The translations under genes were made by a program, and so were the position numbers. The notes under the pieces are model-generated. The model searched no databases. It had not been told where the DNA came from and was given only the letters and a program-made list of their open reading frames with translations. From Zanthoxylum bungeanum (Eukaryota > Streptophyta > Magnoliopsida > Sapindales > Rutaceae), in the NCBI GenBank assembly GCA_019454045.1, contig SKCR01006516.1:372001-436000 (forward strand): a stretch of DNA of 64,000 nucleotides. The letters are read 5' to 3'. This document shows, one piece after another, positions 1,587 to 61,285 of the stretch (its first letter is position 1; every line of letters begins with the position of its first letter).

Positions 1587-2980
1587 TTAGATTATAGGCT
1601 TCAAGCCCATTCCCCTCGATGACTTCTCAACTTGCTCTCGAGGTAAACCTTTAGTTAGTGGATCCGCTAGGTTTTCCTTCGACTTAACATAATCGATCGT
1701 AATTATGCCACTTGAGAGAAGTTGACGTATGGTATTATGTCTCCGACGTATATGTCGAGACTTACCATTATACATTGTATTTTGGGCTCTCCCAATAGTC
1801 GATTGGCTGTCACAATGTATGCTTATTGCTGGCACCGGTTTGGGCCAACTAGGAATATCCTCCAGGAAGTTTCTAAGCCATTCTGCTTCTTCCGCTGTTT
1901 TGTCTAACGCTATGAATTCTGATTCCATAGTAGACCGGACAATACATGTTTGCCTCGAGGATTTTCATGACACGGCTGCATTACCAAGTGTGAAAATAAA
2001 TCCACTCGTGGATTTGGAATCCACCGTATCAGATATCCAGTTAGCATCGCTGTATCTCTCTAGTACAGCAGGATATCTCTCGTAATGTAGCCCATATTTT
2101 GAAGTTTCTCTCAGATACCTCAAAACTCTTACAATGGCTTTCCAGTGGATATGTCCTGGATTGCTCGTATATCTGCTAAGCCGATTCACAGCTTGAGCGA
2201 TATCAGGTCGTGTGCAATTCGTGAGATACATCAGACTTCCGATGATTCTCGAATACTCTAATTGCGATATGTTTGAACCAGTATTCTTTGATAAATGAAG
2301 AGTTAGGTCTACAGGGGTTCTAGCCACATTTAGATCCCCTTTGATATATTTATCGAGTATCTTCTCAATATAATGAGTCTGTGATAATATATATCTGTCT
2401 GATGTCCTAGAAATCTTTATTCCTATGATCACATCAGCTATCCCATATCTTTCATATCAAATCTGCTGGATAACCCGTTTTTGGTAGATTGAATCATTTC
2501 ATGATTACTACCAATTATCAGCATATCGTCTACATAGAGACACACAATGACATATCCTTTTTGAGTTGATTTGGTGTACACACACTTATCACACTCATTG
2601 ATTTTGAACCCATTTGACAACATTTCTTTGTCAAATTTCTCATGCCATTGTTTCGGTGCTTGTTTTAATCCGTACAAGGATTTTACAAGTTTGCACACCT
2701 TCTGTTCTTGTCCAGGAACACTGAACCCTTCTGGTTGTTCCATGTAAATCTCTTCATCCAATTCACCATTCAAGAATGCCGTCTTTACATCCATTTGATG
2801 TATTTCAAGACCAAATATAGCTGCTATGGCTATGAGCATTCTTATCGATGTGATGCGAGTCACTGGTGAATATGTGTCAAAGTAATCAAGGCCTTCCTTT
2901 TGTCTATAACCCTTTATGACAAGTCTTGCCTTATACTTATCTATTGATCCATCCGTTTTCATCTTCCTTTGAATATCCAT
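1587..2980 (-). pseudogene. Copia-1 reverse transcriptase and RNase H (broken)
   Basis: In sense order this encodes a Copia RT, with KARLV, the LYGLKQAP stretch and the YVDD active site, then RNase H with the SDANW and DPLTKGL signatures. A one-base frameshift near 2438 separates RT from the RT/RNase H connection. A TGA near 1965 replaces the Trp of the usual SWKSS motif. The N-terminal end of RT is out of frame with the sequence upstream because of a shift near 3065. The frames cannot give a single polyprotein. Confidence 0.93.
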
Positions 2981-4197
2981 TTGTAGCCCAGCGGCTTACA
3001 ACCTGGCGGAAGATCAACCAACTCCCAAGTATGGTTCTGTAGGATTGAATCAATCTCACTGTTAATAGCCCTTTCCAAAGAGGTGCCTCCGGAGAAGCCA
3101 TAGCTTCTTTATAGCTTTGAGGCTCATTTTCTAACAAGTATGTCAGAAAATCGGGACCAAATGACTTAGACGTTCTAGCTCTTTTGCTACGTCTAGGCTC
3201 GATTGTCTCTGCATTTACATGTTGATCTGATTCTTGGTCAACTTGATCATTGTCCTTAACAGTATCAACTGTTCTTTTGAGAGACTATGTGCGCTGTCTT
3301 TCCTTACAAGGAAACGTCTCTTCAAAAAATGTCGCATTCCTTGACTCAATTATCATGTTCGGATTGATGTCATGAATCTCCGACTTGTGTACCAAGAATC
3401 GATACGCACTACTGTTGCGAGCATATCCAATGAATATACAATCAACAGTTTTGGGTCCTATTCTAACCTTCTTAGGTTTAGGAACCATTACTTTGGCAAG
3501 ACACCTCATATGGTGTCTTGTCTAACCTCCTGTGAGGAAGCTTGTTTAGAACGTAGTTCGCGGAAAGTAAGGCTTCCCCCCACAAGTTCTGGGGTAGACC
3601 CGAACTTGTCAACATGGCGTTCATCATTTCCTTCAACGTTTGGTTTTTGCGTTCCGCAATTCCGTTCTGTTGAGGAGAATAAGGAGCAATGGTTTCAAGA
3701 ATAATTCCATGCACAGAACAATATTCACCGAATGGTGAAACGTATTCACCGCCTCTATCACTCCTGATTCTTTTGATTTTCTTGCCAAGTTGGTTTTCAA
3801 CTTCGTTCTTATAGTGTACGAAGCTCTCAATAGCTTCTGCTTTGCTTCTCAGCAAGTACACATAGCAGAATCTTGTGCTGTCATCGATAAAAGTGACAAA
3901 GTACTTTTTACCGCCTCTTGTTTGCACAATATTCATGTCACATACATCAGTATATATAAGTTCTAGCGGTTCAGAACTACGTTCTATTGAATGAAATGAT
4001 GTTCTATGCATTTTTGCTTCAACACATGCTTCACACTTATGTTGGCTATCAATTGCAAATTTAGGTATAAGATCCATGTTAATTAATTTACGCATGGTAT
4101 CATAATTAACATGTCCTAACCTCTCATGCCATACATTTTGTGACACAATAATATAAGCAGACGAACTAGCTTTATTAATAGCACGATTAACAGTCAT
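2981..4197 (-). pseudogene. Copia-1 integrase and integrase-RT linker (broken)
   Basis: From 4197 down it reads as the GAG-pre-integrase domain (WHERLGH, then the CEACVEAK zinc-binding part), then an integrase core with TDV, FIDDSTRF, SDRGGEY and PYSPQQNG. At about 3510 the KTPYE motif runs straight into the CLAKV block: a stretch normally encoding some 15-17 residues is missing and the frame shifts. A stop lies near 3290 in the linker, and a further frameshift near 3065 precedes RT. Neighbouring domains belong to the same polyprotein. Confidence 0.92.
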
Positions 4198-4230
4198 TAC
4201 ATTTAGCTTGAAAAGGCCCTCAGTTAGGTA

Positions 4231-5475
4231 TCATTTTCCTACATACATATCATTCTTAGTCATTACAAACTTGTCAGAAACAAATACAAGCTTAAAACCA
4301 GCCTTACTAAGAAGAGAGCCCGAGACCAAGTTCTTCCGAATATCTGGAACGTGCAGTACATTCTTCAATGTTAGCTCCTTTCTGGATGTCATCTTCAGAA
4401 CCACTGTGTCTTGTCCAACCACCTGAGAGGTAGACGAGTTTCCCATTGTCAGATGATCCCCGCCATCGACCTTCTGGTACATGGAAAACATCTTACTGTC
4501 TGCACAGATATGACGAGTAGCCCCAGTGTCTACCCACCATTCTCTCGGATTCCCAACTATATTGGCTTCGGTTACCACTGTTGATAGTTCCATCTCTGAG
4601 ATATCATCAGTCAGCTGCTCATCTTCAGTAACATGGGCCTCATTTTTCTTTTTCTTGCCCTTGTCCTGAGACTTTTTGTTCCTGCAGTCCTTTGACATAT
4701 GACCGCTCTTACCACAGTTGTAGCATTTTCCCTTGAACTTCTTGTTCCCAGATTCAGCTCCACTGTTCTTTCTCTTTTTGCTACCCTTTACACCTTCAAT
4801 GATGTTGGCCTTAGACTCCAGAGTCTTGTAGCTGGCCTTCTCGGATATCCTGTTGTCCTCCTCGATTCTCAATCGAACACTGAGGTCTTCAAGGCTTATC
4901 TGCTTCTTTTTGTGTTTCAGATAGCTCCTGAAGTCCTTACATGATGGATGCAACTTTTCAATTATGGCGGCAATTTGAAACGTCTCACAAAGTTTCATTC
5001 CCTCATCCAGTATTTCATGAATGATCAATTGCAGTTCACCCAACTGAGACATCACCGTCCTTGAATCTACCATCTTGTAGTCCAGGAACCTACCCACGAC
5101 AAATTTCTTTTGTCCGGCATCTTCAGTTTTATACTTCTTCTCGAGAGATTCCCAGAGAATCTTCGCAGAAGTCATGCCTTGGTACACATTGTACAGGGTA
5201 TTGTCAAGACCACCCAAAAGGTAGTTCTTGTATAAGAAGTCTCCAGACATCCAAGTATGTTCTCGCTCTTCTTTGGCCAATTCGGATTCACCCTCCACAG
5301 GACCCAGAAGATCTTTGATGAATTTTGCCAACTGGAGAGTTTTCAGGTAGAACAGCATCTTGCTCTGCCATTGTTTGAAATTTGCCCCACCAAATTTCTC
5401 CGGTTTTTCTCCGTGAGAGACCGGTACCGTGATATTTCCGCTAGCCATATGTAACTGGAAAATCAACAGGGTCAA
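4231..5475 (-). pseudogene. Copia-1 gag and protease (gag intact, TGA after protease)
   Basis: This 414-residue frame starts with a gag domain, including [10 protein letters not shown] and the [10 protein letters not shown] stretch. It continues through a lysine-rich region to a single CCHC zinc knuckle ([14 protein letters not shown], about residue 250) and then a Copia aspartic protease with [10 protein letters not shown]. The frame ends after MYVGK at a TGA; the related element at 39231 has TGG (Trp) there, so this is a nonsense change and integrase continues in the same frame. Gag itself is uninterrupted. Confidence 0.93.
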
Positions 5476-7156: not shown

Positions 7157-8478
7157 TCAAAATGGAGCAGTTGAGGTTCTGTAGAGTGTGCGCTTTTTTG
7201 GAAATCCTGAAGATGCCAATAACTAAACACACATGACAGCAAACAGCTTATTAGATCTCTAATTTTAATTTAACAAACACTTAATACTAATAATAAGAAA
7301 ATTAAAGATATTATTATTATCATTTCACTACTATAGAAATTGATAAATAATAAATAAATACAAGAAATATTATGATATAATTTTTACTTATTATATTTTT
7401 TCAAAATTTCCAGTATTCCGGGGATAAAAAAAGAACAAATAGTACTGTTCAACAAAATAGAAGAAAGTTTAAACTGAAATGAACAAAAACTGAAAAAAAA
7501 AATTTATGGAAATAGATGAAACAATCATATATAACATAATTACGTAAAAAAATTCATACAGCTGACTCCACGTATTAAGAAAAGATCCTAGTAGTAAATG
7601 ATAATAACCCTTTGAAACTAAATTAAAGATTCACTTTTTAATTGACCTGTTCTAATTGGTTTCTCAGCTTAGCATTCTCTTTCTCCAAATGGGCAACTTC
7701 TTGTTCCAACTCAGTTGTATAAGCCTGCATAAAAACATTATATACAAAAATGAAAAACAACCCAGAATCAGTATTGCTCACTAAAATCAAAATCATCATA
7801 CACATTTAGTTAAAGAGATCAGAAAGATGAGTACAGAGGAAAGAAAGTTTCCTGTTTTCTGGCTCTGGATCGAGCAGCTGACTCTCTATTATTCATCAGT
7901 CGCTTATTTCGCCGATCATTGGACTGATTACCATTTTCTTGGGGCCCTTTGAGGCCAACAGAGGGCACAACTTGAGCAGAGGAGTTGCTGAGAGGGAAAC
8001 CATGCAGCAATTGCTGGCTTGGCCTTTGATGATGATGATGATGATGATCAGGGGCAATAATATTTTCAAAATAATGAAAACCAGACCCAGAATTCAAGCA
8101 CAACAAAGTGCCATGGTGTTTAGTCAAGGGACCACAGCATGAGTTGTTAGAGGGCTTAGTGGACAGAGGAACTGAAGCTGAAGCAGAGGCAAAAGCAGAA
8201 TGTTTTGTTGGTGATTGGTGTTTGTTAAATGGAGTAGCAAAGAAATCTTGAAATATTACACCAGCAGTACTTTTCGGAATGTTGGTAGTGTTTGGGATAT
8301 TGGTACTGTTAGTGTGATCTTGCAAAGAATTTAGGCTAATGTCTTGCCAAACTTCTTCCATGGATATTTCATTAGGGGTGCCTGGTGATAAAGGAGATGA
8401 ACATGATGAGGAAGATTTTGAAGGTGAACTGGAGCTTCCATTGTTTTGTTTCTTTTTGTTCTTTCTAGATGGCCACAT
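7157..8478 (-). CDS. FD: FD-like bZIP transcription factor, three exons, non-GT donor in intron 1
   Basis: FD proteins bind DNA and, through 14-3-3 proteins, florigen (FT) to switch on floral genes. Exons are 7852-8478, 7647-7724 and 7157-7222, giving 256 residues. Exon 1 starts MWPSRKNK, has the EEVWQDI motif and a His run, and ends with the basic region (NNRESAARSRARKQ). Exon 2 continues AYTTELEQEVAHL, the leucine zipper. Exon 3 ends in RTSTAPF, the C-terminal SAP motif whose Thr/Ser is phosphorylated for 14-3-3 binding. All frames join in phase 0, with AG acceptors and a GT donor for intron 2. Intron 1 begins GAAACT instead of GT; reading through adds ten residues and stops within the intron, losing zipper and SAP motif. 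The gene is either spliced at a rare GA-AG site or a recent pseudogene. Confidence 0.88.
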
Positions 8479-13882: not shown

Positions 13883-15049
13883 CTTGTAGGTAGGGGTGGG
13901 CATTATCGGATCGGACCGAATCCGAATCCGATCCGATTTGATAAGAGTTGATTTGTTTGGTTCGATCGGATTTTGAGTCCTTATTGGATCGGATCAGATT
14001 TCATCCGATAAATATCGAATCGAATCAGATTTATTCGATTCGATTTGATTTGATATTTAACAAATCAGATAAATTCGATTTGATAACAGATCTGAATCCG
14101 ATAAAGCATCTGATTTGATAATGAATCCGATAGTGGATTGGCCGGTGCAATCACACGCGTATAACGCAAGCGCACATATCGTTCAAGTAGTATAAAAAGT
14201 ATCGATCCCATGAGGACTTAATACCTAATCTATTAATTTTATGAGGTCAAATGATTACTAGTATCTAACAGGTTGATTGATTGATTTGAAATGGTGATGA
14301 TTTTAAATTTAAAAACAAGTAAATAAAATTGTACGAAAGTAGGTTTAAGAAAATTCAATATTAGGAAACTATCTAGGGTTGTGAATCTTTCCAATATCTT
14401 TTGAAAGATGAAGTGGTTATTTCATGTTTGTGTAATATATCGGTTTACTGACCTGTAACATTAAATTATGCGAAAGCCTCTGTCGATGGTCAGACGCAAA
14501 TACCCAGTATAACCCAATTGAACCATATGTCTATGTCAACCAAATTACCTGGATTCATTAAGTTTAAGTTCCAATTATGGCTACCCCCCCCCGACAGGTA
14601 TATGTCTATCCTGTAAGGAAATTTATTAAAGGGTTATCTATCCTCAAGGAAGATCGTGGACTATTAAGTCTAAGGCTGAAACCTAAAATTCTTTTGTCAA
14701 GTTTATTTTAGATTTACCAGATCAATCTTATTAGTGGCCAATTAAAAAGACGCATTAAGCTTAAGACTTAATAAGTAAACCTTTAAATTACCCAAACTAT
14801 AAAATAATCTCTTATAAACCGGTGATATTAGAAGTCATCACAACCCTAGATAACTAACTTAGTTACGGCACATAATTAGGGCTAGTAAAAACTTAAAAGT
14901 AAAAGACATAAAGTAAAAATGTTGAAAAGTAATTGCGGTAAAGTAAAAGCTGAAAAGTAAATTACAATAAAATAAAATGCTAAGGTAAAAAGATCAACTT
15001 TTACTATTACTAATTTAGATATCTCTCTTATATTAACTTGTGATGATAT

Positions 15050-15255
15050 TACCAACCAGCCATATAGGCGGTAACCAGATTAAGTCAAATTAAGTCCGAC
15101 CAGCCATATAGGCGGTATCAAAATTTGTCCATAAACCTGCCATATAGGCGGTAAGAAAGTTTAATTACCAACCGACCAATCTGACGGTATCCTTACTTAG
15201 TCAGGTTTAAACCAGTTTAAAAATGATTACCAACCGGCCAATATAGCGGTATCCT
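15050..15255 (-). repeat. Five ACCG-CATATAGG-CGGT motifs in the Athila LTR
   Basis: Degenerate repeats of ACCRGCCATATAGGCGGTA, each about 18-20 bp, with ACC(G/A) at one end and CGGT at the other. The same array is at 20822-21025 and 35665-35858, and in a diverged LTR at 59303-59470. It lies downstream of the TATA box and so should be in the transcribed leader. Confidence 0.85.
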
Positions 15256-15676
15256 CATTAAGTCAAATTTTAAATAGTGAATATATTATAATTAAGGGAG
15301 ATTAATCTAAATAACAATAGTAAAAGAATTACCTTTCACCATAGCTGGGGGAAGTTACCTCCTCATGGTTGAATAGTAAAACTGTAAAAGTAAAGAAATT
15401 AAATTACTATTACTATTACAGAATGTAATTAAAATTAATTACAAAACTGAAATTAAAATAAATTAGATAGAAAACTCCATATTTACATCAGAGAATTCAG
15501 AGAGGAAGGTACATCTGAAACTGAAATTTTGAGCTTTATTTATAGGCCTCGGTAAGCCCTAAGCGTCGCGACGTGCAATTTTCTTCTTACGTCGCGACGC
15601 GCTGACGTGTCAGCTTCTGGTTCGTTGGCTTCAGATTCTTATCTAACACATGGCATTTCGGATAAGGTGATAAGGT

Positions 15677-15935
15677 GACACGTGGCAAGGCGGCTGGCAA
15701 CTCAATGATTATGCTGACGTGGCGATGACCTGGCGACTCGTGGAGAAAGTGATTGTCGGCACCGTAGGATTGCGGCACGTGGCACTTCGTGATTGGCTGA
15801 TGATGACGTGGCGGTGACGTGGCACATTCACTCTGTCTTCTGCTGACATGGTGATGACGTGGCTGACATGTGGAGTGACACATGGCGACACGTGGCGATG
15901 GCGATTGTCGGCATCATAGGATGATGACACGTGGC
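15677..15935 (-). promoter_or_regulatory. G-box/ABRE-like array upstream of the Athila TATA box
   Basis: Eight ACGTGG cores begin at 15680, 15717, 15777, 15806, 15817, 15857, 15890 and 15929, mostly as GACACGTGGC or TGACGTGGC. ACGTGGC is the core of ABA-response elements and G-boxes bound by bZIP factors. The array ends about 130 bp upstream (in sense) of the TATA box. It recurs at 21447-21690 and 36280-36600. Confidence 0.75.
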
Positions 15936-16240
15936 ACATCACACGTTAGCAAAGTCAAACTTCATAGATTCGGACTTGTGGACCCGGCGCACGTTAGCAG
16001 CTCATGCGCATGTTAGGCGTCGTGACACCGAAGGCTTGCGCGTCGCGACGCACGAAATGACCATTTTGCCATTTTTGTCATTTTTCACTGTTTTGGCCCA
16101 AAATCACCTCCAGAGAGTCCTGAAACTTTATTTATCTACAAAATAACACAAAATATATCAAAAAAATCACAAAACTCAAGAAACTATACAAAATATTAGG
16201 TCAAATGAGTGGGAAATAGTAATATAATTATCATTCATCA

Positions 16241-17565
16241 CACCCCCAAACCTAACATTTTACTAGTCCTCGAGCAAAACATAGAATAAAATAACATAAA
16301 CATCTTTAAAATAAAATTTAACTAAGCCACTTTCGTAGGGATCACAGTTGCATTTAGCGTATGCAACAAGCCTTTAAACCCCTAGGTGTCCCTAGTGGAC
16401 GAGTTGTAGTCTCGTGAGGGTTTACAACAATGAGACCCACAAATATTTTATAAAAGTAAAAAGGTAGTGAAACTAATGCACACAAAAGCAAAAAGACAAG
16501 AGAAAATAGAATAAAGAAGTTAGTGACTAATCAAGTGAAACTTCTACTCCAAGTCACTAGTTGTTTTCTTTCTTTCTAAATTACCGAATAAGTAAATTCT
16601 CCAGTTATATTTACCATTCTCCATATACACAGCCAACAAAATATTAAACAACTCATTTTTCCCCACAACAGTCACAAGTGCAGTTGATAAGAGAGTAATA
16701 TTTTTGTACTAAAGTTTTATCAGAATTCACACCTTTTTGTAGCAATGGAATAATTTTTCTGATTTTTTCTTTGATTTTTGATTTATTTATTTATATATAT
16801 ACAATATCTTCCGTCTATGTAGCGAGTGTTGGGTCGGTGGCTCCCAAACCAGTTGGCTTTACGGCACCAAGTGTTAAGACACCCCTACAGACTTAATTAC
16901 TCAGACTTCAGATATATATATTTTTGCAACATCATTGATCCATGTAGCGAGCTTTGGGCCAGTGACTCCCAAACCAGTTGGCTTTAGGGCACTAGATGTT
17001 AAAACACCCATACGGACTTAATTACTCAGATCTCAGACGTTTTTTTTTACTCCATCACTTTTTGAGATGCTTCCTCCAATTAAACTAGAGCACTGAATAT
17101 TACAAACTTTTCAATTATAGCTTATGTTCGTATGTTACCATGTATGTTGATAATATCTGCCAACTGAGCATATGAAAATCCATTTTAGTCAATTTTATGG
17201 AGAATTTACAAATTAAATAATTCAAAAGGAAATAAACAAAAATTAACTTGTTCCAAAATAGGTTTGAGATACGTCTCAGGAGTAGAAACTCCTTACACAG
17301 CTATCTCTTACCAATTTCACCTTTTTAGTCAAAATAAAAACAAAAACGCAAAATATTTTTGTAATTTTTTGAAAAATTTTCAATTTTTTTTGTATTTTTT
17401 GAAAACATTTGGACTAAAAATAAAAACAACACACAACTAAAAATAAGATACTGATCAACTAATTCCCTCCCCCAAACCTAAATGAGACATTGTCCCCAAT
17501 GTCTTAAACAGTAGAAGAAGAGTTTAAAAGATAGTACCTGGTTAACTGAAATTCTACACGAAAAG
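16241..17565 (-). other. Athila polypurine tract and long 3' untranslated part
   Basis: GTTTGGGGGTG (sense; plus strand 16241-16251) directly precedes the 3' LTR and is the polypurine tract. The rest is non-coding, with two copies of a roughly 120-bp unit (about 16815-16915 and 16940-17040) containing CTCCCAAACCAGTTGGCTTTA. The same pair of units occurs at 60725-60965 in the diverged Athila fragment. Confidence 0.75.
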
Positions 17566-18219
17566 TTAAAGGTTAAGATCCAGATTAATCTGATGCCTCT
17601 TACCACATACGTCATCGGACCAATTTATCTTTGAAAGGATAGGGTCAATTTGTGGTTCATATGCTAAGATTTGGTCAATTAGATCCGGAGCAGTTCTGGC
17701 AGTGAAGCTGATTTCTTTTAAAGGTTTTGACACGAACCCATTTCTCATGGCATCATCAAGAAACACACACAGAAAATCATAAAATCCTTCAACGTTATAC
17801 AGTCCAAGCGGTTTCTGGTGTATGTTCAGGTTCGCCCAAGATAACACTGTAAAAATTTCCTCCAATGTACCCAAGCCACCTGGCAAAGCAATAAAAGCAT
17901 CAGCACGATTAATCATTTCTACCAATCGTTCAGACATACCTGGCACGATCAGGTCCTCTCCGTTTGATGGTCCAATAAGATTTTCTTCTGCCAAGGTTTT
18001 TGGGATGATTCCCAAAACGTGACTGCCTCCCTCTTGTACAGCTTTTGAAACGATCCACATAAGTCCAAGATTGCCTCCGCCATATACTAAGTGCATATTC
18101 CTTGCAGCTAAGACTCGACCCAATTCCTGTGCTGCTTCTATGTATTGTGGCTTAACATTAACACTAGTACCTTAAAACACACAGATGTTTTCAACTCGAC
18201 TTCTTAAAGTGGCTTCCAT
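17566..18219 (-). pseudogene. LOG-like cytokinin riboside monophosphate phosphoribohydrolase inside the Athila element
   Basis: LOG enzymes release active cytokinin bases from their riboside 5'-monophosphates. The frame from ATG 18219 has 217 codons with no intron, whereas plant LOG genes are normally split into several exons. Visible family features are the N-terminal VF-stop-GTS (VFCGS expected), KPQYIEAAQELG, YGGGNLGLM, the catalytic PGGLGTLEE (residues 113-121) and WANLNIHQKPLGLYNVEGFYD. Codon 16 is TAA (18172-18174) where Cys is expected; a Trp follows GLM where Gly is usual. The next in-frame Met (codon 42) would lose the N-terminal strand. The frame has the element's orientation and sits between integrase and the 3' LTR, where Athila elements carry extra ORFs. 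Capture from a spliced host mRNA is the simplest reading (inference). Confidence 0.9.
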
Positions 18220-18563
18220 GTTTTACTCTGGATGTCTTCAAAAGTGCAATGATGAGTTGAATTTATAACACCTGAAAAAGGTGAGTAAAATAATAGCACT
18301 AGTACCTTCCAAATGACAATTATTAGTTAACAGTAAAATAAATTGTGATAGTCAAAAAAGGTCTGGATCCTGTCGGAGAAAATAAAAGAAAACAACAAAA
18401 CAAATCACAATTATTAGGAAAATACAAAGAGATATAATATGTACAAGAAATGTAGCGTCTTGATTGACGTCTATGCGTCAGGGACAAGCTTCCCATCCAA
18501 TTTTCTTATAAATTGGAAAACAGGGTCTTTTTGAGTCGGATTTCCGAGACTTAACTGTTGTCT

Positions 18564-19019
18564 TTATTTTTGGAATTGTGTATGTAATTTGCGAATGCCT
18601 ATATGAACATATCCACTGGGATGCGTCTCAAGAGTTGAAGATATATTATCTACAGACTCCTTACTCAAGCCATCCCTAATGAATTTAATTTTGTCTTCAC
18701 GATTATCAGACACCATTCCTAAAGAACGACAACGAGTATTGCAATTCCAACGTGCACATTTGTAACAAACACCCATTTGCTTAGCTCTACGTTTCTTTGC
18801 ATAGGTGCTTCTTCCAAAACCAGGTAGATGTGAAATAAAAGAGTCAGAAGACTCATCTGCCAATCGGACACGTGCTTCAATTACCCAACGAATGTTATTA
18901 GGAATACTTTTGATCATCAGTAATCTCATCCGTTCCAAGCGAGCTTTGTAAACTTTCATCAGAGATTTTTGAGGGAGAGAAGGAAATTGCTTGTGAAGAT
19001 TTGCGAGAGCTTCTTCCAT
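18564..19019 (-). CDS. Small basic C4 protein, accessory ORF of the Athila element
   Basis: An intact 151-residue frame, same strand as integrase. The N-terminal half is predicted helical and basic (LMKVYKARLERMRLLMIKSI). Residues 69-80 form a basic patch (GRSTYAKKRRAK), followed at once by Cys85-x2-Cys88-x4-Cys93-x3-Cys97. A GRS-x-Y-A-[KR]-RRA patch followed by CxxC is the arrangement of the nucleic-acid-binding proteins of Betaflexiviridae (Pfam Viral_NABP, PF05515), which bind nucleic acid and in several viruses suppress RNA silencing. The similarity is seen by eye only; length and N-terminus differ. A splice-acceptor-like TTTTTGCAG lies 17 nt upstream of the ATG. It could equally be an unrelated retrotransposon zinc-binding protein. 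Confidence 0.7.
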   Translation of the reverse strand: MEEALANLHKQFPSLPQKSLMKVYKARLERMRLLMIKSIPNNIRWVIEARVRLADESSDSFISHLPGFGRSTYAKKRRAKQMGVCYKCARWNCNTRCRSLGMVSDNREDKIKFIRDGLSKESVDNISSTLETHPSGYVHIGIRKLHTQFQK

Positions 19020-19157: not shown

Positions 19158-20565
19158 TTAGGCTAGATCTGAAAGTGTGACACTTTCTTTTTGTCGCTCA
19201 AATGATTCTCCCCAGTAGTTCTTGACACGCTGACTGTTAACCTTGAATGTTTCGTTGGTGTTAGGATCCAGTAACTCAACAGCTCCATATGGTAAAACCT
19301 GAGTGATCACAAAAGGATCTGACCACCTTGATTTCAACTTTCCAGGGAAAAGTTTCAACCCTGAGTTGTATAACAACACTTGCTGCCTTGGTTCCAACTG
19401 TTTGTGCACTATTTTTCGGTCATGCCATTTCTTGGTCTTTTCTTTGTACAATCTGGCATTCTCACAAGCATGTAAGCGAAATTCCTCCATTTCGTTGAGT
19501 TGGTGGAGTCTTTTCTCTCCTGCAGCTTGTGGATCAAGATTCAACTTCTTCAGTGCCCAGTACACCTTGTGTTCAAGCTCAACTGGTCGATGGCACGCTT
19601 TCCCAAACACCATACGATATGGGGACATACCAATGGGTGTCTTGTAAGCTGTTCGATAGGCCCATTATGCGTCGTCCAATTTTGTTGACCAGTCCCTCCT
19701 TGTTGATCCAACAGTTCTCTATTTGAAACTTCAACCTGTCCATTTGACTGTGGATGATAAGCAGTGGCAACCTTGTGAGTGACTCCGTATTTGGATAGGA
19801 GTGCATCAAAATTTCTGTTGCAGAAATGTGAGCCACCATCACTGATAATTGCCCGAGGTGTTCCAAACCGAGTGAAAACGTTCTTTTTCAGGAATTTGAT
19901 CACCACTTTTGAATCGTTGGATGGCAGTGCAATTGCTTCGACCCATTTGGAGACGTAGTCTACAGCAACCAGGATGTACATGTTTCCGAATGATGGAACA
20001 AATGGTCCCATGAAATCTATACCCCATACATCAAATATCTCCACTTCCAGAATGTTTTGCAATGGGCCTTCATTTCTCCTCGAAATATTCCCTGTTCTCT
20101 GGCACCTGTCACATTGAAGAGCAAAAAGATAAGCATCTTTAAAAAGAGTGGGCCAAAACAAACCTGATTGCAGGACTTTAGCTGCAGTTTTATTCCCGCT
20201 AAAGTGCCCGTCATATGGTGATGAATGACAGTGCTGCATAACACTGTTGACCTCCTCATGTGGAACACACTGTCTCAATAATTGATCAGCACACCGTTTG
20301 AACAGGTACGGCTCATGCCAGACATAGTGCTTGACTTTTTTGAAGAATTTCTTCCGTTGCAGAGTTGTCCATTCCAACGGCCATTTTCCTGACACAATGT
20401 AGTTGACATAGTCAGCATACCAAGGGGCATCTTGCTGTTTCATGGCGAACATCTGTTCATTTGGAAAAGTTTCTTTGATTGACAATTCTTTGCCAGCTAT
20501 TTCTCCATTCTCGAGCCTCGATAGATGATCAATCTGGAAATCCCTTTGATTGACAATTCTTTCCT
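19158..20565 (-). pseudogene. Athila integrase (broken), with the RNase H tail
   Basis: From about 20540 down it reads [10 protein letters not shown] (the conserved end of RNase H), then the integrase zinc domain ([22 protein letters not shown]) and the core with [15 protein letters not shown] and GQVEVSNRE. At about 19730 a short deletion removes the residues after SNRE and shifts the frame; a TAA near 19675 interrupts DDA-x-WAYRTA. The C-terminal part ([14 protein letters not shown] to GESFERQ, ending 19158) is open again. Upstream sequence runs directly into LTR sequence at 20568, so everything before RNase H is lost. Confidence 0.92.
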
Positions 20566-20567
20566 CT

Positions 20568-22030
20568 TATAAAATAACCTCTTATAAACCGGTGATATTA
20601 GAAGTCATCACAACCCTAGATAACTAACTTAGTTACGACACATAATTAGGGCTAGTAAAAACTTAAAAGTAAAAGACATAAAGTAAAAATGCTGAAAAGT
20701 AATTGCGGTAAAGTAAAAGCTAAAAAGTAAATTACAATAAAATAAAATGCTAAGGTAAAAGGATCAACTTTTACTATTACTAATTTAGATATCTCCCTTA
20801 TATTAACTTGTGATGATATTACCAACCAGCCATATAGGCGGTAACCTGATTAAGTCAAATTAAGTCCGACCAGCCATATAGGCGGTATCAAAATTTGTCC
20901 ATAAACCTTCCATATAGGCGGTAAGAAAGTTTAATTACCAACCGACCAATCTGGCGGTATCCTTGCTTAGTCAGGTTTAAACCACTTTAAAAATGATTAC
21001 CAACCGGCCAATATAACGGTATCATCATTAAGTCAAATTTTAAATAGTGAATATATTATAATTAATGGAAATTAATCTAAATAACAATAGTAAAATAATT
21101 ACCTTTCACCATAGCAGAGGGAAGTTACCTCATCATGGTTGAATAGTAAAAACTGTAAAATTAAAGAAAGTAAATTACTATTACTATTACAGAACGTAAT
21201 TAAAATTAATTACAAAACTGAAATTAATATAAACTATATAGAAAACTCTCTATTTACATCAGAGAATTCAGAGAGGAAGGTATATCTGAAACTGAAATTT
21301 CGAGCTCTATTTATAGGCCTCGGTAAGCCCTTCGCGTCGCGACGCGCAAGTTTCTTCTTGCGTCGCGACGCGCTGACGTGACAGCTTCTGGTTCGTCGGT
21401 TTCAGATTCTTATCTGACACGTGGCATTCAGATAAGGTGATAAGGTGACACGTGGCAAGGCGGCTGGCAACTCAATGATTATGATGATGTGGCGACACGT
21501 GGCGAAAGTGATGTCGGCACCGTAGGATTGCGACACGTGGCACTTCGTGATTGGCTGATAAAGACGTGGCGGTGACGTAGCACGTTGACTTGGTCTTTTG
21601 CTGACATGGCGACGACGTGGCTGACACGTGGAGTGACACGTGGCGATGGCGATTGTCGGCACCATAAGATGATGACACGTGACACAACGCACGTTAGCAG
21701 ATCGGCTGTGATGGTGACATGTGGCACGGCGCACGTTAGCAAAGTCAAACTTCACAGATTCTGACTTGTGGACCCGGCGCACGTTAGCAGCTCATGCGCA
21801 TGTTAGGCGTCGCGACGCCGAAGGCTTGCGTGTCGCGACGCGCGAAATGACCATTTTGCTCTTTTTGTCATTTTTCACTGTTTTGGCCCAAAATCACCTC
21901 CAGAGAGTCCTAAAACTTTATTTATTTACAAAATAACACAAAATACATCAAAATATTCACAAAACTCAAGAAATTATGCAAAATATTAGGTCAAATAAGT
22001 GGGAAATAGTGATATAATTACCACTCATCA
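20568..22030 (-). repeat. Athila 5' LTR, truncated
   Basis: Matches 14801-16240. About 0.65 kb corresponding to 14139-14800 is missing at the junction with the integrase region. TATA box at 21306-21318, CGTCGCGACG at 21335, 21361 and 21808, and the ACGTGG array at about 21447-21690. Confidence 0.92.
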
Positions 22031-22449
22031 TGGATTCGATTTGATAACAAATCTGATTTGATAAAATTGATTTGAATTTTAAGTTATCTGATCCGATTCG
22101 ATAAAATTGTTATGAATTTATAAATTTTCAAGTCAATTTTTCAAATCGGATCCATTATCGAATCGAATCTACTATCGAATTTATTATCAAATCGGATTCT
22201 CTATCGGATTCAAATCCGTTATCAAATCAAATTCTCTATCGGATTCGGATTTGTTATCAAATCAGATAAAATCTGATTCGATCCGATAATTATCAAATTT
22301 ATCCGATTCGATCCAAAATTCGACAAACGAACCAAACACGATTTGATCGGATTCGAGAGCTAGATCCGATCCGATTTGATCCGATATTATCGGCTCGAAT
22401 CGGATCGGATCTGACCCGATCCGATTCGATGCCCCGTCCTACTTGTAGG

Positions 22450-34697: not shown

Positions 34698-37600
34698 TAT
34701 TGGAAAATGCTCACTAGTAAGCATTTTGAGATACAATTTTAAGCATGGTCCATGACCGGTGGTTCCACACACGCGTATAACGCAAGCGCACATATCGTTC
34801 AAGTAGTATAAAAAGTATTGATCCCACGAGGACTTAATACCTAATCTATTAATTTTATGAGGTCAAATGATTACTACTATCTGACAGGTTGATTGATTGA
34901 TTTGAAATTGTGAAGATTTTAAATTTAAAAACAAGTAAATAAAATTGCATGAAAGTATGTTTAAGAAAATTCAATATTAGGAAACTATCTAGGGTTGTGA
35001 ATATTCCAATATCTTTTAAAAAGATGAAGTGGTTATTTCATGTTTGTGTAATAAATCGGTTTACTAACCTGGAGCGCGAAATTATGTGAAAGCCTCTGTC
35101 GATGGTCAGACGCAAATACCCAGTATAACCCAATTGAACCATATGTCTATGTCAACCAAATTACCTGGATTCATTAAGTTTAAGTTCCAATTATGGCTAC
35201 CCCCGCCCGACATGTATATGTCTATCCTGTAAGGAAATTTATTAAAGGGTTATCTATCCTCAAGGAATATCGTGGGCTATTAAGTCTAAGGCTGAAACCT
35301 AAAATTCCTTTGTCAAGTTTATTTTAGATTTACCAGATCAATCTTATTAGTGGCCAATTAACAAGACGCATTAGGCTTAAGACTTAATAAGTAAACCTTT
35401 AAATTACCCAAACTATAAAATAACCATTTATAAACCAGTGATATTAGAATTCATCACAACCCCAGATAACTAACTTAGTTACGACACATAACTAGGGCTA
35501 GTAAAATAAAATACATAAGGTAAAAATGCTGAAAAGTAATTGCGGTAAAGTAAAAACTGAAAAGTAAATTACAATAAAATAAAATGCTAAGGTAAAAGGA
35601 TCAACTTTTACTATTTACTATTTAGATATCTCCCTTAATATAATATATTAACTTGTGATTATTTTACCAACCAGCCATATAGGCGGTAACCTGATTAAGT
35701 CAAATTAAGTCCAACCAGCCATCAAGGCGGAACCAAAATAAACCTGCCATATATGCGGTAAGAAAATTTAATTACCAACCGACCAATCTGGCGGTATCCT
35801 TGCTTAGTCAGTTTAAACCAGTTTAAAATGAATTACCAACCGACCAATATAGCGGTGTCCTCATTAAGTCAAATTTTAAATAGTGAATATATTATATTTA
35901 AGGGAGATTAATCTAAATATCAATAGTAAAAGAATTACCTTTCACCCTAGCAGGGGGAATTTACCTCGTCATGGTGAATAGTAAAAACTGTAAAAGTAAA
36001 AAAAAAAGTAAAATACTATTATTACAGAACGTAATTAAAATTTATTACAAAACTAAAATTTAAAAGAAACTAGATAGAAAACTCCATATTTACATCAGAG
36101 AATTCAGAGAGGAAGGTACATCTACAACTGAAAACATCGAACTCTATTTATAGGCGTCCATAAGTGCCAAGCGTCGCGACGCGCAAGTTTCTTCTTGCAT
36201 TGCGACGCGCTGAAATGGTAGCTTCTGATTGGTGGCTTCAGATTCTTATCTGACACATGGCGATTACGGATAAGGTGATAAGGTGACACGTGGCAAGGCG
36301 GTTGGCACTCAATTATTATGCTGGCGTGGCGATGACGTGGTGCTGACGTGGCGACACATGGCGATAATGACTGTCGACACCATAGAATGATGACACGTGG
36401 CACGCTGTGATTGGCTGATGATGACGTGGTGGTGACGTGGCACGTTGACTCGGTCAATTGGTGATGTGGACGATGACGTGGCTGACATGGGGAGTGACAC
36501 GTGGCGACACGTGGTGATGGCGATTGTCGGCACCGTAGGATGATGACACGTGTCACAGCGCATGTTAGCAGATCGGCTGGGATGGTGACACGTGGCACGG
36601 TATAAATTAGCAAAGTCAAACTTCTCTGATTCTGACTTGTGGACCTGACGCACATTAGCATTGTTCGGGGCACATTAGGCGTCGCGACGCGCCAAAATTA
36701 CCAAAATGCTCTTTTGTCCAATTTTCACTGTTTTGGCCCCAAATCACCTCCAGAGAGTCCTGAAACTTTATTTATCTACAAAATAGCACAAAACACATCA
36801 AAATATTCACAAAACTCAAGAAAATATACAAAATATTAAGTTAAATGAGTGGGAAATAGTGATATAATTACCATTCATCAGTCCACTTCGTGTTAGTAGT
36901 TGTCTTTGAGTGATTCAGATACTCCTCCATGAGTAGTTTGGGGTATATTCATATGCTTAAAATGGTGCTTGGGTGAATGAGAAATTGTTGCTCGAAATTC
37001 ACCCATTGGTGTTGGAAAATAAAGAGAAATACTGTTAATATATGATTGCTCATATGTAGATGAGTAAGTGATATAAGGATAGAGGCTCTCTCTACGTGCG
37101 TGCGCAGGGGGGTGCAAATCAAAATCCGAATAGGCCTGACTCGTGTGCACCCGCGCGTCATGTGTACATGAATGCTGTACCAAATTGTGAGGGCCCGGCC
37201 CAGCCACCTTTTGCAAGCCTCTTTATTTTTTTCCAAGTTTTTTGAAGTTCCATAACAGTTAAATTAATTCTATTAATTAACTGGGTGGTTACATCATATG
37301 AAAAGCCTCTCACTAACTCAATTTAATTGGCATGTTCATTTTCTTTTAAAGGGGGCAGTGTTTTTCGTTTTTGATGATAAATAAAAAAAATATACAGAAC
37401 GGTTTTCCCTTAGTTTTCTTTACTGTTTTGTTGAGAGAGTTTGAACACTTCGTGGTTCGTTGAAGACGATTTTGGTGGTGCCCATTCTCATTTATTTTTG
37501 TTGCATCCTGGGAAACAAACGTCTCGCATTCTACTGCACCATTCGGTAGGGGACGAATTTATTTTAAGGAGATTGTTGTCGCATCAACAAGCCTCAGAAT

Positions 37601-37885: not shown

Positions 37886-38933
37886 ATGGAAAATAATCCA
37901 AACACAGTTGATCCGAACATGGCAGCCTCTTCGGCTGGCCAAAATGTTCCAGTCTCTGGGCTTAATGTGGCAGCCTCTGTGGCTGGCCAAAGTGTTGATG
38001 CTTCTATGGCTAGACAAGCTGTTGGACATGTGAGCTATGTCAATCATGCTGCGGAAAAACTTGAAAAATTCATTGGTCAGAATTTCAAAAGGTGGCAACA
38101 TAAAATGTTTTTTTTACTTGACCACGTTGAATCTTGCAAGGTTCCTAAAGGAAGATGCTCTTGTACCCAAAGAGGGTGAGAATGATATTCAAGTGATTAG
38201 TGTCATCGATGCTTGGAAACATTCTGAATTCCTATGTAGGAATTATGTGCTGAATGGGCTGAGTGATTCCTTGTACAGTGTGTACGCCGGAATGAATACA
38301 ACTAAGGGGCTTTGGGAATCCTTAGATCGAAAATATAAAACTGAGAACGCCGGTACTAAGAAATTTGTCGTAGGCCATTTCCTAGATTTTAAGATGGTTA
38401 ACTCCAAAACTGTGTTAAGTCAAGTACAAGAATTACAGATTATTCTAGCAGAAATTCATGCTGAGGGGATGGTTTTAAGTGAAACCTTCCAAGTAGCCTC
38501 AATAATTAAAAAACTACCATCTGGTTGGAACGATTTCAAGAATTATTTAAAGCATAAGCGAAAAGAAATGAACATTGAAGACTTGGTTCTTAAGCTTAGA
38601 GATGAGGAAGATAACAGAGTATCTGACAAGAGAGGAATAACTCATGAGGCCAAAGCAAATGTTGTTGAACATGGCCATAAGAACAAGAACCTCAAGAACA
38701 AAAGGTCAAAGATGGGCCCTAAAGGAGGAATTTCCAAGAAATCCAAATTTCAAAGAACATGCTTCAACTGTGACAAAATGGGTCACAAGTCTTCTGAGTG
38801 CAGACTACCGAAGAAGAAAAAGAACCAAGAGGCTAATGTGATGGAAAACATGACTCAAGATGTTTCAGACATTAACCTTTCTGATGTGGTTTCTGAGGTG
38901 AATCTGGTGGGTTCTAACCCAAGAGAGTGGTAG
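37886..38933 (+). pseudogene. Copia-3 gag and start of protease (frameshifted)
   Basis: It begins MENNPNTVDPNMAAS at 37886. A run of eight T (38108-38115) shifts the frame, and gag continues in the next frame from [12 protein letters not shown] to a CCHC knuckle ([14 protein letters not shown], about 38760). The frame stops at 38931 with TAG where the protease REWW motif needs a second Trp. Otherwise closely related to Copia-1 gag. Confidence 0.9.
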
Positions 38934-40550
38934 ATTGACACTGGTGCCACTCGACATGTGTGCTCAGACAAGAGTATGTTCTCTTCATTTGAGCCTGCTG
39001 GTAATGGGAAAAAAATATACATGGGAAATTCAGCAACATCTGAGATTGAATGTCAAGACAAGGTGATTCTGAAGATGACCTCTGGGAAAGAGTTGACTTT
39101 AAATAACGTTCTGTATGTACCATAAATACGAAAGAATCTTGTGTCTGGATCACTTCTGAACAAGCACGGATTCTGGATGGTGTTCGAGTATGATAAAGTA
39201 GTTTTGACCAAAAATGGCATGTATGTGGGAAAATGGTATGTAACTGATGGGCTCTTTAAGTTCAATGTAATGGTTGTTAAACCCAATAATATCAATAAGG
39301 CTAGCTCTTCTGCTTATATTGTTGAGTACTCTGATCTATGGCATGGTAGATTAAGATATGTTAATTTTAATTCATTGCGGAAATTAATTAACATGAATCA
39401 CATTCCCATTTTTAAAATTGATAACATACATAAGTGTGAAACTTGTGTTGAGGCAAAACTAACTAGATCATCATTTCATAGTATTGAAAGAAACTCTGAA
39501 CCACTTGATCTAATTCATACCGATGTATGTGATTTTATTTCAATACAAACAAGAGGCGGTAATAAATATTTTATTACCTTTATTGATGATTGCACAAGAT
39601 TTTGCTATGTGTATTTGATGAAAAACAATGACGAAGCTATTGAGAAATTTATTCTCTATCAGAATGAAGTTGAGAACCAACTGAATAAAAGAATTAAGGA
39701 GTTAATAAGTGATTGTGGTGGTGAGTATGTTTTTCCTTTTGAATCACTTTGTGAGCAAAATGGAATCATATATCAAACCACAGCTCCTTATTCACCTCAA
39801 TCCAATGGGATTGCAGAATGGAAAAATCGTACCTTGAAAGAAATGATGAATGTTATGTTAATCAACTCTGGATTACCTCAAAATATGTGGGGATAAGCTG
39901 TTTTATCAGCTAATTACCTTTTAAATAAGGTACCACGACAAGAAACAGGGAAAACTCTTTATGAAATGTGGAAAGGAAGAGTACTTTCCTATAAATTTCT
40001 ACGAGTGTGGGGGTGTCTTGCAAAAGTAGTCATTCCTCCACCTAAGAAGGTGAAGATATGACAAAAAACTGTTGATTGTATTTTCATAGGATATGCACAT
40101 AACAGTAATGCTTATCGATTTCTTGTGCATGAGTCTAATATACCAGATATTCACAAAAATACGATAATGGAGTCGAGGAATGCATCATTTTTCGAATATG
40201 TTTTTCCTTGTAAAACTAATTCGAATTCAAATGTGCACAAATGGGCACATAAGGCTATCAGTGAAGATAGTAAGGACCAAAAACACATAAATTTTCCAGA
40301 GGATCAACAAGATGTTGAACTTGAACCAAGACGTAGCAAATGAGCTAGAACGGAAAAATCATTTGGTCTAGATTTTCTGACAGTTTTGCTAGAAAATGAT
40401 CCTCAAAGCTATAACGAAGCTGTAAGGTCAGCTGATGGTGCTTTGTGGAAAGATGCCATCAATAGTGAAATTGAATCAATCTTACAAAATCACACCTGGA
40501 GTTAGTGGACCTTCCTCTAGGGTGTAAACCTTTAGGGTCCAAGTGGATAC
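38934..40550 (+). pseudogene. Copia-3 protease and integrase (broken, cut off before RT)
   Basis: Reads IDTGATRHVC (protease), then LWHGRL and CETCVEAK (GAG-pre-integrase), TDV, FIDDCTRF, SDCGGEY and PYSPQSNG (integrase core), and the FIGYAHNSNAYRF block. Single-base nonsense changes interrupt it near 39124, 39895, 40060 and 40341. The RT reading frame begins (LGSKWI) but is cut at 40550 by unrelated sequence beginning TGTTGTG; RT, RNase H and the 3' LTR are absent. Confidence 0.92.
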
Positions 40551-58417: not shown

Positions 58418-60240
58418 TGATCGGTGAAATCACTCACGTTACGCAAGCGCACGTATCGCTCAGGTAGTATAAAATGTATCGATCCCAATAGGACTTAATA
58501 CCTAGGTTATCAATTTATGAAGTTAAATGTTTACAAGTATCTAATAGATTGGTTGTTGATTGGATGGTGATTTTTATCTAAAACAAGTAAATAAAATAGT
58601 GCGAAAGTAAATTTAAGGAAAATTCAATATTATAAAACTATCTAGGGTTGTGAATCCTTCCAATCTTTTAAAGATGACGTAATATCTCATGTTTGTGCAG
58701 TATATCAGTTTATAAACCTGTAATACGAAAATATGCAAAAGCCTATTCTGATGATCAGATGCAAACACCCAAAGTAACCAAATTAACTATATTCATATGT
58801 TAACCAAGTTACATGAATTCATTAAGATTAAGTTCCAATTATGGCTACCCCCGCCCGACAGGTATATTCCTATCATGTAAGAAAATCTACTAGTAAGAGT
58901 CATTTGCCCCGAGGTGAGATCATGAGCTATTGAGTCTAAGGAAAACCTAAAATCCTTTTTCCAAGTTCATTTTAAGTTTACCAGATCAATCTTATTAGTG
59001 GCCAGTTAATAAGAAGCATTAAGCTTAAGACTCAATAAATAAACCTTATATTACTACCCGAGACATAAAACAACATAATTTATAAACCAGTGATATTGAA
59101 ATTCATCACACCCCTAGATATTATGTTTAGTTACAAAACATACCTAAAATTACAAAATGTATAGTTAAACAGAATAACATAACAAAAAATAAAGAAAATT
59201 ACAACAATAAAAGAAAATGATGGAGCTAGGGTTCACTTTTAATACTTCAAATATAGATTACTCCATTATCAATTAATAATTTCTTGAATTAATTATATTA
59301 AAATCGACCATATAGACGGTGAATGTCATCTGTCCAAAGTCCAACCGACCATATAGGCGGTAACAAAATCATATAAACCAACCATGTAGGCGGTAACAAG
59401 GTTAGCACCTAAACCGACCATATAGGCGGAAACTAAGTGCACTAATGTAAAACCGGCCATATAGGCGGTAAATAATTAATTGAATTTACTTATTTAAATT
59501 AAGGGAGTAAATCTAAATATTATATTAAAAGTTTCACCCCAGACTCCAGCAAAAGAGATTACTTACTCATGATGTAATTAAAAACACACAAAAATTTATT
59601 AAATAAATAAAGAGAAAATACAAGAAAACATAAATAAACATGCAAGACACTTTCTTTTAGGTTTTCATGAAGAAATCCCCCAAAGAATGCATGAAAAATT
59701 TATAAAGTTTAGCTTGGTATCTATAGGCAAATATAAAGGCTTCCACCAATTTCTCCACTAAACATGGCACCAAACATGACACCAAATCCTCCACCAAACA
59801 TACAAGAATGTTTGGTGGAAGATTGAGAATTTCCATTTTTTTTTTTGTTTTTGAAAATGACTTTAATAATTACACATAACACACTTACGGATTTTTCATC
59901 AATTTCAGTGATGAAAACTCCAGAATTCGAAAATCATATGAACTTCAACATTGTAGCTCTTTGAGTCCTCTTTAATCTGAAACTTGAATCACCTCAATCT
60001 GATATCAGAATAAAATATTATGGCCAAAATACGACAATTGCGCAAAGCTGAAATTTCCAAATTGTACTTCGTTAGAACACCATTTCAAGTTTCCAATCTC
60101 CAAAATCAAAATGTCAAGTCCAGTTTTGCCCTTATTTGTTCCATTTTCGTCCTAATTGATTCCATTGAGTTCCAATTTTATTTTATCTGTAAAATATTAA
60201 GTAAATGGGTGGTAAATATTGATATATTTTTCGCTCATCA
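58418..60240 (-). repeat. Diverged Athila-type LTR (3' LTR)
   Basis: 1823 bp, TGATCGGTGAAATCAC...TCGCTCATCA. Related to 14139-16240 at both ends and across its 3' third, but the promoter part is different: no ACGTGG array and no CGTCGCGACG. Five ACCG...CGGT motifs are kept at 59303-59470 with unrelated spacers. Confidence 0.87.
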
Positions 60241-61285
60241 CACCCCCAAACCTAACAGTTTGCTAGTCATCTAGCAAAACAAACAAAACAAAATCCAATA
60301 AATAACTTTAAAATAAAATTAAACTAAGCCACTTTCGTAGGGATCACAGTTGCATTTAGCGTATGCAACAAGCCTTGAAACCCCTAGGTGTCCCTAGTGG
60401 ACGAGTTGTAGTCTCTTGAGGGCTTACAGCAACGATACCCACAAACATCAAGCAAATGTAAAATTAAACATACAAAACAAGTTAGTGACTAAACAGGTGA
60501 GAATCTTATCCAAGTTAAGAATTGTTTTCTTTCTTTCTAAATTACCAAATAAGTAAATTCTCCGATTATTTTTACCATTCTCCATATACACAACCAACAA
60601 GGTATTAATAAAATCATTGTGCCACAATATTTATAAGTGTAGTTGAAAAGAGAGTAATATTTTTGTCCTAAAGTTATATCAGAATTCACACCTTTTTAGC
60701 GATGAATTTTTTCATAACATCTTTAATCCATGTAGCGAGCTTTGTGCCAGTGACTCCCAAACCTGTTGGCTTTAGGACACTAGGTGTTTAGACACCCCTA
60801 CAAACTTAATTACTCGGATCTCGGATGTTTATTTTTTTATTTTTAATAATTAACATATTTAATACATGTAGCGAGCTTTGGGCTAGTGACTCCCAACCCA
60901 GTTGGTTTTAGGGCACTAGATGTTAAAACACCCCTACGAACTTAATTACTCGAATCTCAGATGTTAAAAGTTCTACCATTTGATGCGAATAATCTCTGCT
61001 TACTGAGGCAAGATGTCCGGTTACTAAGTAGAAACTTTTTTAATATACACAATATTTTTTTTATTCCATCGTTTTTTTAGATGCTTCCTCCAATTAAACT
61101 AGAGCATTGAATATTACAAACTTTTCACTTATAACTCATGGCCGTATGTTACCTTGCATGTTGATAATACTTGTCTACTAAGCGTATGAAGATCCAATTT
61201 AGTCAGTATTATGGAGAATTCACGAATTAAATAATTCAAAAGGAAATAAATAAAAATTAATTTGTTACAAAATAGGTTGAGATAC
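60241..61285 (-). other. Internal 3' end of the diverged Athila element
   Basis: Begins with the polypurine tract (plus strand CACCCCCAAACC). It parallels 16241-17275, including the paired roughly 120-bp units, and ends at GAGATAC where the Tat/Ogre LTR is inserted. The region that would show whether this family also carries a LOG-like gene lies beyond the break. Confidence 0.82.

Follow-up and report, generated by a model that had tools for sequence, protein, structure and literature searches.

What does a retrotransposon of Zanthoxylum bungeanum gain from a frame related to LOG, the cytokinin-activating enzyme of plants, and is that frame still such an enzyme? We addressed this in a 64,000-nucleotide stretch of contig SKCR01006516.1 (the window), in which the original prediction, made from the letters alone, had placed an intronless 217-codon LOG frame between integrase and the 3' LTR of an Athila-type element, on the integrase strand and inside a single set of LTRs with a matching target site duplication (TSD). 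This arrangement was confirmed: the frame lies on the minus strand (18219..17566), it carries the predicted stop at codon 16 (TAA), and the one LTR set, whose 5' member is partial, is flanked on both sides by the 5-bp TSD TGGAT. The element is a truncated LTR element on the minus strand with the order partial 5' LTR, integrase, a 151-codon frame, LOG, polypurine tract (PPT) and 3' LTR, and its parts are the following (window positions).

14134..14138, no strand: TSD TGGAT, left copy, by sequence
14139..16240, minus: 3' LTR, 2102 bp, with TG...CA ends
16241..16256, minus: polypurine tract, GTTAGGTTTGGGGGTG as read on the minus strand, by sequence
16262..17500, minus: 3' non-coding stretch, the LOG-independent probe for copies
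17566..18219, minus: LOG-like frame, 217 codons plus stop, with TAA at codon 16 and the EAR-like tail INLDLNL
18272..18285, minus: splice-acceptor-like CACCTTTTTCAG, 5' of the LOG ATG, by sequence
18564..19019, minus: second accessory frame, carlavirus-type nucleic-acid-binding / zinc-finger protein, 151 codons
19036..19047, minus: splice-acceptor-like TTTTTGCAG, 5' of the NABP ATG, by sequence
19158..19628, minus: integrase C-terminal part, in a frame different from that of the N-terminal part
19550..20485, minus: integrase zinc-binding and core domains
20568..22030, minus: 5' LTR, partial, joined directly to integrase
22031..22035, no strand: TSD TGGAT, right copy, by sequence

The integrase (20485-19158) is split over two overlapping frames, about one third of the 5' LTR is gone (~660 bp of its inner, 3' end), and the copy is without a primer-binding site (PBS), gag and reverse transcriptase (RT). 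Alignment of its two LTRs over 1424 bases shows 59 transitions and 29 transversions (K2P = 0.065), a divergence that would correspond to roughly a few million years if the usual plant substitution rates are assumed. The window copy is a decayed, internally deleted member of a large Athila-lineage family in which the env position holds a carlavirus-type nucleic-acid-binding protein (NABP) and a LOG-derived phosphoribohydrolase. The NABP frame before LOG and the truncation of the 5' LTR, along with the pocket changes and the LxLxL tail of LOG described below, go beyond what had been predicted.

Several further features were seen in the window. A 19-bp direct repeat, ctttgattgacaattcttt, found by eye at 20473-20491 and 20544-20562, lies at the integrase/5' LTR junction and may have been left by template switching or repair at the deletion. 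At 16788-17037, within the non-coding sequence between LOG and the 3' LTR, a 125-bp unit is duplicated in tandem (81% identical). The same family is represented by a solo LTR at 34753-36880 (86.5% identical; TSD GTCCA at 34748-34752 and 36881-36885) and by a fragmentary LTR at 58422-60246 (~74% identical over the longest piece). Frames that by eye are Ty1/copia-like gag-pol remnants occur at 1965-5475 and 38037-39896, and a frame at 7819-8478 with a bZIP match just under the Pfam cut-off (26.4 vs 27.6 bits) may be an exon of a host gene and by eye looks FD-like.

The element family and its lineage

We searched the source genome (3.96 Gb, 51,709 contigs) with a LOG profile and obtained 150 scored matches of 47,331 first-look candidates, the latter figure not being a copy number. 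All 150 were over the curated cut-off and 147 had no stop inside the match. Element sequence adjoins LOG in every one of the 28 loci that we read from this search (8 short and 20 long), and an LTR starts 3' of LOG in 26 of them, comprising the 8 short loci, by match into the LTR, and 18 long loci (all but L015 and L023). On the 5' side of LOG, 20 of the 28 loci have an NABP-like stretch, seven have another frame without a Pfam match (L001, L002, L003, L007, L019, L021 and L025) and one, L009, has neither. The loci with the other frame represent a second kind of element, exemplified by L003:1-810, with a 270-aa frame before LOG instead of NABP and no Pfam match over the cut-off; dN/dS of this frame is ~0.6 in 6 copies (0.61). 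Gag, RT and RNase H (RH) were seen in some of the longer loci (L013, L024), and the order integrase, NABP, LOG, PPT, LTR is present in many copies. Three loci (L011, L014, L028) are without RT and most of integrase, and in the long loci with the other frame (L019, L021, L025) the LTR stands directly before that frame, so there is no pol in them. Pol-less loci still carry LOG, although LOG is the feature that found them. We also observed tandem arrays of pol-less LTR-NABP-LOG units (L012, L016, L017), whose structure suggests amplification by unequal recombination.

To avoid choosing intact LOGs, copies were also sampled by a genome search in which the probe was the non-coding DNA separating LOG from the PPT. 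Of 9,367 candidates 40 were scored, the window itself among them, and the copies found are near kin, 90-99% identical to the window stretch. LOG sequence was present at the expected place in all 39 others, 5 of which are clearly partial. The expectation that other copies would carry LOG at the same place was therefore borne out in both samples (28/28 profile loci and 39/39 non-coding-picked copies), and the frame is common to the family rather than confined to one insertion with a TSD and poly-A tail of its own, the case named beforehand as pointing to a chance retrocopy.

A tRNA-Asp-type PBS, TGGCGCCGTTGCCGGGGA, is exact in L021, L022, L025 and L028 and has one difference in L011, L014 and L019, these being the seven loci with a readable inner LTR end in which it was scored; that of the window copy is lost. 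Calypso and Diaspora are described as having a PBS for the same tRNA, which in Diaspora starts 5 bp after the LTR as against 6 bp in the window family (PMC1142308). The additional RNase H (aRH) that marks Tat is described as lying, in angiosperm Tat elements, between RH and integrase (PMC6317226), and in L024 the RH match stops ~90 bp before integrase similarity starts, leaving no room for it. The PBS type in the relatives and the lack of an aRH in L024 thus support the Athila-type assignment of the original prediction, and with it membership of the family in the Athila lineage (Ty3/gypsy, OTA). Athila and Calypso likewise have an accessory coding region between pol and the PPT (PMC1142308). 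However, unlike Athila, Calypso and Diaspora, the window family has NABP and LOG in the env position and not an envelope-like ORF: none was found between integrase and the PPT, where the two frames are NABP and LOG, nor were there other ORFs of at least 120 aa on the element strand in this interval of the window.

Fold, substrate pocket and tail of the retroelement LOG

The open part of the LOG frame (185 aa) matches the Pfam family Lysine_decarbox (PF03641, e-value = 1.3e-35) and Arabidopsis LOG3 (2a33, e-value = 1.5e-49). Identities with the window LOG are 49.4% for AtLOG3, 44.7% for a Pseudomonas LOG and 41.9% for AtLOG8. We modeled the LOG of L003 with AlphaFold2 (mean pLDDT 85), and comparison of the model with the PDB gave AtLOG3 (2a33) the best E-value, with a TM of 0.92 by target. 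Because the frame scores better against plant LOG3 than against bacterial LOG, capture from a spliced plant mRNA, as originally proposed for this intronless frame, would be the simplest origin, the higher identity to Pseudomonas LOG than to AtLOG8 notwithstanding. A bacterial origin was considered and appears less likely given that identity is highest to AtLOG3; the trees are unrooted and their bacterial branch is long. Single-sequence queries of viral contigs gave no relatives of LOG or NABP, and one viral-contig match to the NABP alignment (L068) was set aside as chance, being a short string in a 573-aa phage frame that is SbcC/Rad50-like by eye. A protein search with LOG returned 1686 relatives, known as proteins without genomic context. 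We used the best 120 of these, which include species of Populus, Reevesia, Diplodiscus and Xanthoceras and among which three Populus entries are named LOGL10.

Arg99 and Glu122 are the catalytic residues of LOG, and an adenine/prenyl pocket of Met96, His97, Lys100, Glu125 and Trp129, in which Lys100 contacts adenine, has been proposed, the pocket being inferred in the source paper itself (PMC4979012). The original prediction had called the frame motif-perfect. YGGG, PGGLGTLEE and both catalytic residues are indeed present, but the term does not extend to the substrate pocket. In the 30 profile-picked copies, which include the window and some near-duplicates, Arg99, Glu122 and PGGxGTxxE are kept without exception (30/30); among the non-coding-picked copies the Arg is kept in 34/40 and the Glu in 37/40. 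Met96 and Trp129 are also kept in the element family, whereas the other three pocket residues are replaced. The profile-picked copies have Ser for His97 (30/30), Leu for Lys100 (29/30) and Ile, Thr or Asn for Glu125 (30/30), and the 40 non-coding-picked copies have, at the same positions, Ser in 35, Leu in 38 and Thr, Ile or Ser in 39. The His/Lys/Glu triple is found in only 8 of 118 LOG relatives (the best 120 of 1686 minus two without the region), compared with all 120 plant LOGs listed for AtLOG3, a list made up of close LOG3/LOG1-type proteins only. In the same 118 best relatives the catalytic Arg is kept in 104 and gone in 14. Given the replacement of His97, Lys100 and Glu125 in the family, the description of the gene as cytokinin-activating is not supported as stated. 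The substrate pocket of the retroelement LOG (retro-LOG) has changed, and hormone activation may no longer be its task.

The LOG frame ends in INLDLNL or a similar string, preceded by a basic stretch. LxLxL is the EAR motif, which binds TOPLESS corepressors in plants. It occurs within the last 14 residues of 65 out of 90 long LOG relatives (those listed with at least 185 aa and a PGGxGT motif) versus none of 120 LOG3-type plant LOGs. Codons 211-216 are moreover the least variable stretch of the frame in the non-coding-picked copies, with a diversity of 0.016 where base context and codon position would predict 0.079; the ratio of 0.21 is below those of all 209 in-frame 18-nt windows (lowest 0.38). 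These values come from local alignments, of which one in 40 (L063) ended before the tail and was dropped, and codon 217 is mostly uncovered. As most of the tail-sampled copies are dead, the conservation is stronger than selection on the protein would readily account for by itself. In the model of the L003 LOG, the tail (residues 204-217) is disordered. A quick tree of 49 rows, with 17 open forks, requires 5 changes for the tail and 2 for the pocket. Overall, retro-LOG shares with AtLOG3 (2a33) the fold, the catalytic Arg and Glu, PGGxGTxEE and the length, but differs in having only ~49% identity, replaced His97, Lys100 and Glu125, an LxLxL tail, no introns and a location in a retroelement.

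Selection on LOG and the partner gene

Among the 40 non-coding-picked copies (39 plus the window), the LOG frame has an in-frame stop in 26, a frameshifting indel in 15 and neither in 6, five of which span nearly the full frame; 34/40 are therefore broken. The original prediction had pointed to dN/dS across copies as a check on the frame, and the pooled Nei-Gojobori value was 0.40 (40 copies, 779 pairs, bootstrap 0.35-0.46), or 0.40-0.41 without partial or odd copies. Neutral star-tree simulations of the LOG sequence gave means of 0.62-0.87 (lowest run 0.56), and a second neutral set with varied ages gave 0.71-0.81. By this measure, the LOG frame is under purifying selection. The profile-picked sample gave lower values, 0.24 in 27 copies (3 near-duplicates of 30 omitted) and 0.30 in a repeat with 30 rows and less cleaning; taken separately, the seven other-frame copies had 0.24, as against 0.23 for 19 others. 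All of these values are biased low because the copies were chosen by LOG score, which favours intact frames. With rising dS bin, the observed dN/dS was 0.69, 0.49, 0.39, 0.30 and 0.22, lower in each bin than in the neutral simulations (0.95-0.97, 0.78-0.81, 0.69-0.71, 0.61-0.64 and 0.51-0.57), the deepest bins depending on two copies, L060 and L063. The idea that LOG is neutral when young and constrained when old was dropped, since the neutral simulations also fall (0.95 to 0.51; 0.97 to 0.57). The fall is largely a binning effect, so the overall level and not the trend is the evidence. In the profile-picked loci, dN/dS was 0.41 for the C-terminal integrase part and, for NABP, 0.22-0.34 at dS 0.1-0.2 and 0.59 over all pairs, and on account of this last value we limit the claim of selection to LOG.

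The 151-codon frame matches two Pfam families, Carla_C4 (30.4 bits, cut-off 20.9, e-value = 3.8e-7) and Viral_NABP (29.9 bits, cut-off 23, e-value = 7e-7), and the NABP of L023 is likewise above the Pfam cut-off. Cysteine-rich proteins of carlaviruses have been described as silencing suppressors, and one of them, p12 of chrysanthemum virus B (CVB p12), as a transcription factor that induces hyperplasia (PMC12172455). The window NABP resembles these proteins in sequence, with a basic stretch, a CxxC region and the two Pfam matches. However, its N- and C-terminal parts, which the Pfam match does not cover, are conserved as well, and its named database relatives come from plant genomes. The frame has 314 relatives in the protein database; the commonest length among the best 120 listed is 182 residues (51 of 120), 31 codons above that of the window frame. 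Xanthoceras, Acer, Populus, Orobanche and Rhamnella occur among these best 120 of 314, and Populus and Xanthoceras are common to the LOG and NABP lists. One entry from each list, P0106 and P0146, has a source contig of 4,511 bp, a match that hints at NABP-LOG linkage beyond the source genome. The predicted structure of NABP (mean pLDDT 56.6) was left out of the analysis.

Both frames are preceded by acceptor-like sites. TTTTCAG stands ~50-80 nt 5' of the LOG ATG in 27 of the 30 copies printed, the exceptions being L026, with CTTTCAG and a shorter pyrimidine run, and L014 and L018, which deviate; TTTTTGCAG is found shortly 5' of the NABP ATG in all 17 copies printed. Spliced env-class elements have been reported in plants, and we infer that these sites would fit spliced subgenomic RNAs for LOG and NABP.

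Possible roles and wider meaning

The reading that best explains the whole, to which we assign a probability of about 0.58, is that NABP and LOG are an accessory pair of an Athila-lineage family that acts on the state of the host cell. In the mechanism we propose, NABP and LOG would both be made from spliced subgenomic RNAs, and the LOG-like enzyme would enter the nucleus, act on a nucleotide monophosphate or a related signal and contact TOPLESS-type corepressors through its tail. Together with the silencing-suppressor-like NABP, it would bring the host cell into a dividing, poorly silenced condition, which would favour retrotransposition. More tentative is the specific form of a two-gene host-manipulation cassette, in which a zinc-finger silencing suppressor of viral type would be paired with a LOG turned nuclear nucleotide hydrolase with a TOPLESS-recruiting tail. 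The target of such an altered LOG is perhaps another nucleotide signal, for instance one from TIR-type immune receptors.

Alternatively, retro-LOG could be a normal cytokinin-activating enzyme that raises active cytokinin and so promotes division, meristem identity and germline transmission of new copies. The conserved LOG fold, PGGxGTxxE and catalytic Arg/Glu and the purifying selection on LOG are in keeping with this, and the hyperplasia induced by CVB p12 (PMC12172455) would fit a joint role in proliferation. However, three of the five proposed prenyl-pocket residues are replaced, including the adenine-contacting Lys100, and alanine changes of crucial active-site residues nearly abolish LOG activity (PMC4979012), so we regard a normal enzyme as rather doubtful. 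An altered, host-manipulating nucleotide hydrolase is at least as likely as cytokinin activation. LOG might also be a passenger that was selected formerly, with the present copies amplifying only through DNA features or trans-acting polyproteins; the 34/40 broken copies and the short pol-less derivatives (L019, L021, L025) are what such a history would leave. Yet pooled dN/dS is under the neutral level even in this decayed sample, and the seven other-frame copies, though chosen by LOG score, have a LOG dN/dS of 0.24, which makes a purely passive LOG unlikely. Finally, an intronless frame with a stop at codon 16 in the window copy could be a host LOG cDNA that landed in one element by chance, as a retrocopy or nested insertion, and has no function. 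We consider this very improbable given that LOG is at the same position in the sampled copies, is only ~49% identical to plant LOG3, has a dN/dS under the neutral level and shows by eye no second TSD or poly-A at its frame edges. LOG is a genuine accessory gene in a repeated family, and the choice for its function lies between an altered nucleotide hydrolase and a cytokinin enzyme.

A LOG/YgdH domain in Ty3/gypsy elements of Citrus and Populus, credited to Steinbauerova et al. 2011, is already in print (PMC9289625), and the window family has the same kind of LOG-family extra domain. In the passage of that source on these elements, the domain is given neither a lineage nor a partner gene, and selection, pocket and tail are not treated; the window family, by contrast, has an altered LOG together with another gene of virus-like type. 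The AlkB-bearing Ty3/gypsy elements of Phalaenopsis are likewise a gypsy lineage with a fixed enzyme domain known from plant RNA viruses, but the enzyme and the lineage are others and activity was demonstrated in vitro (PMC9289625). Among the best-ranked open-licence papers retrieved by our searches, none described an NABP in plant LTR elements, the NABP-LOG pair, the pocket loss of LOG or its tail. A survey of plant elements set a minimum of 250 codons for extra ORFs (PMC6317226), a length that the 182- and 217-codon frames do not reach.

The extra ORFs of plant retrotransposons seldom have an identifiable biochemical function, whereas retro-LOG has a catalytic fold with known chemistry. Its specific change, a pocket lost and a tail gained, together with the selection on the frame, makes the benefit of an extra gene to its element a testable question. 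In addition, database proteins bearing the name LOGL10 may in fact belong to retroelements. If true, the two-gene cassette would be a plant counterpart of the capture of host genes by retroviruses.
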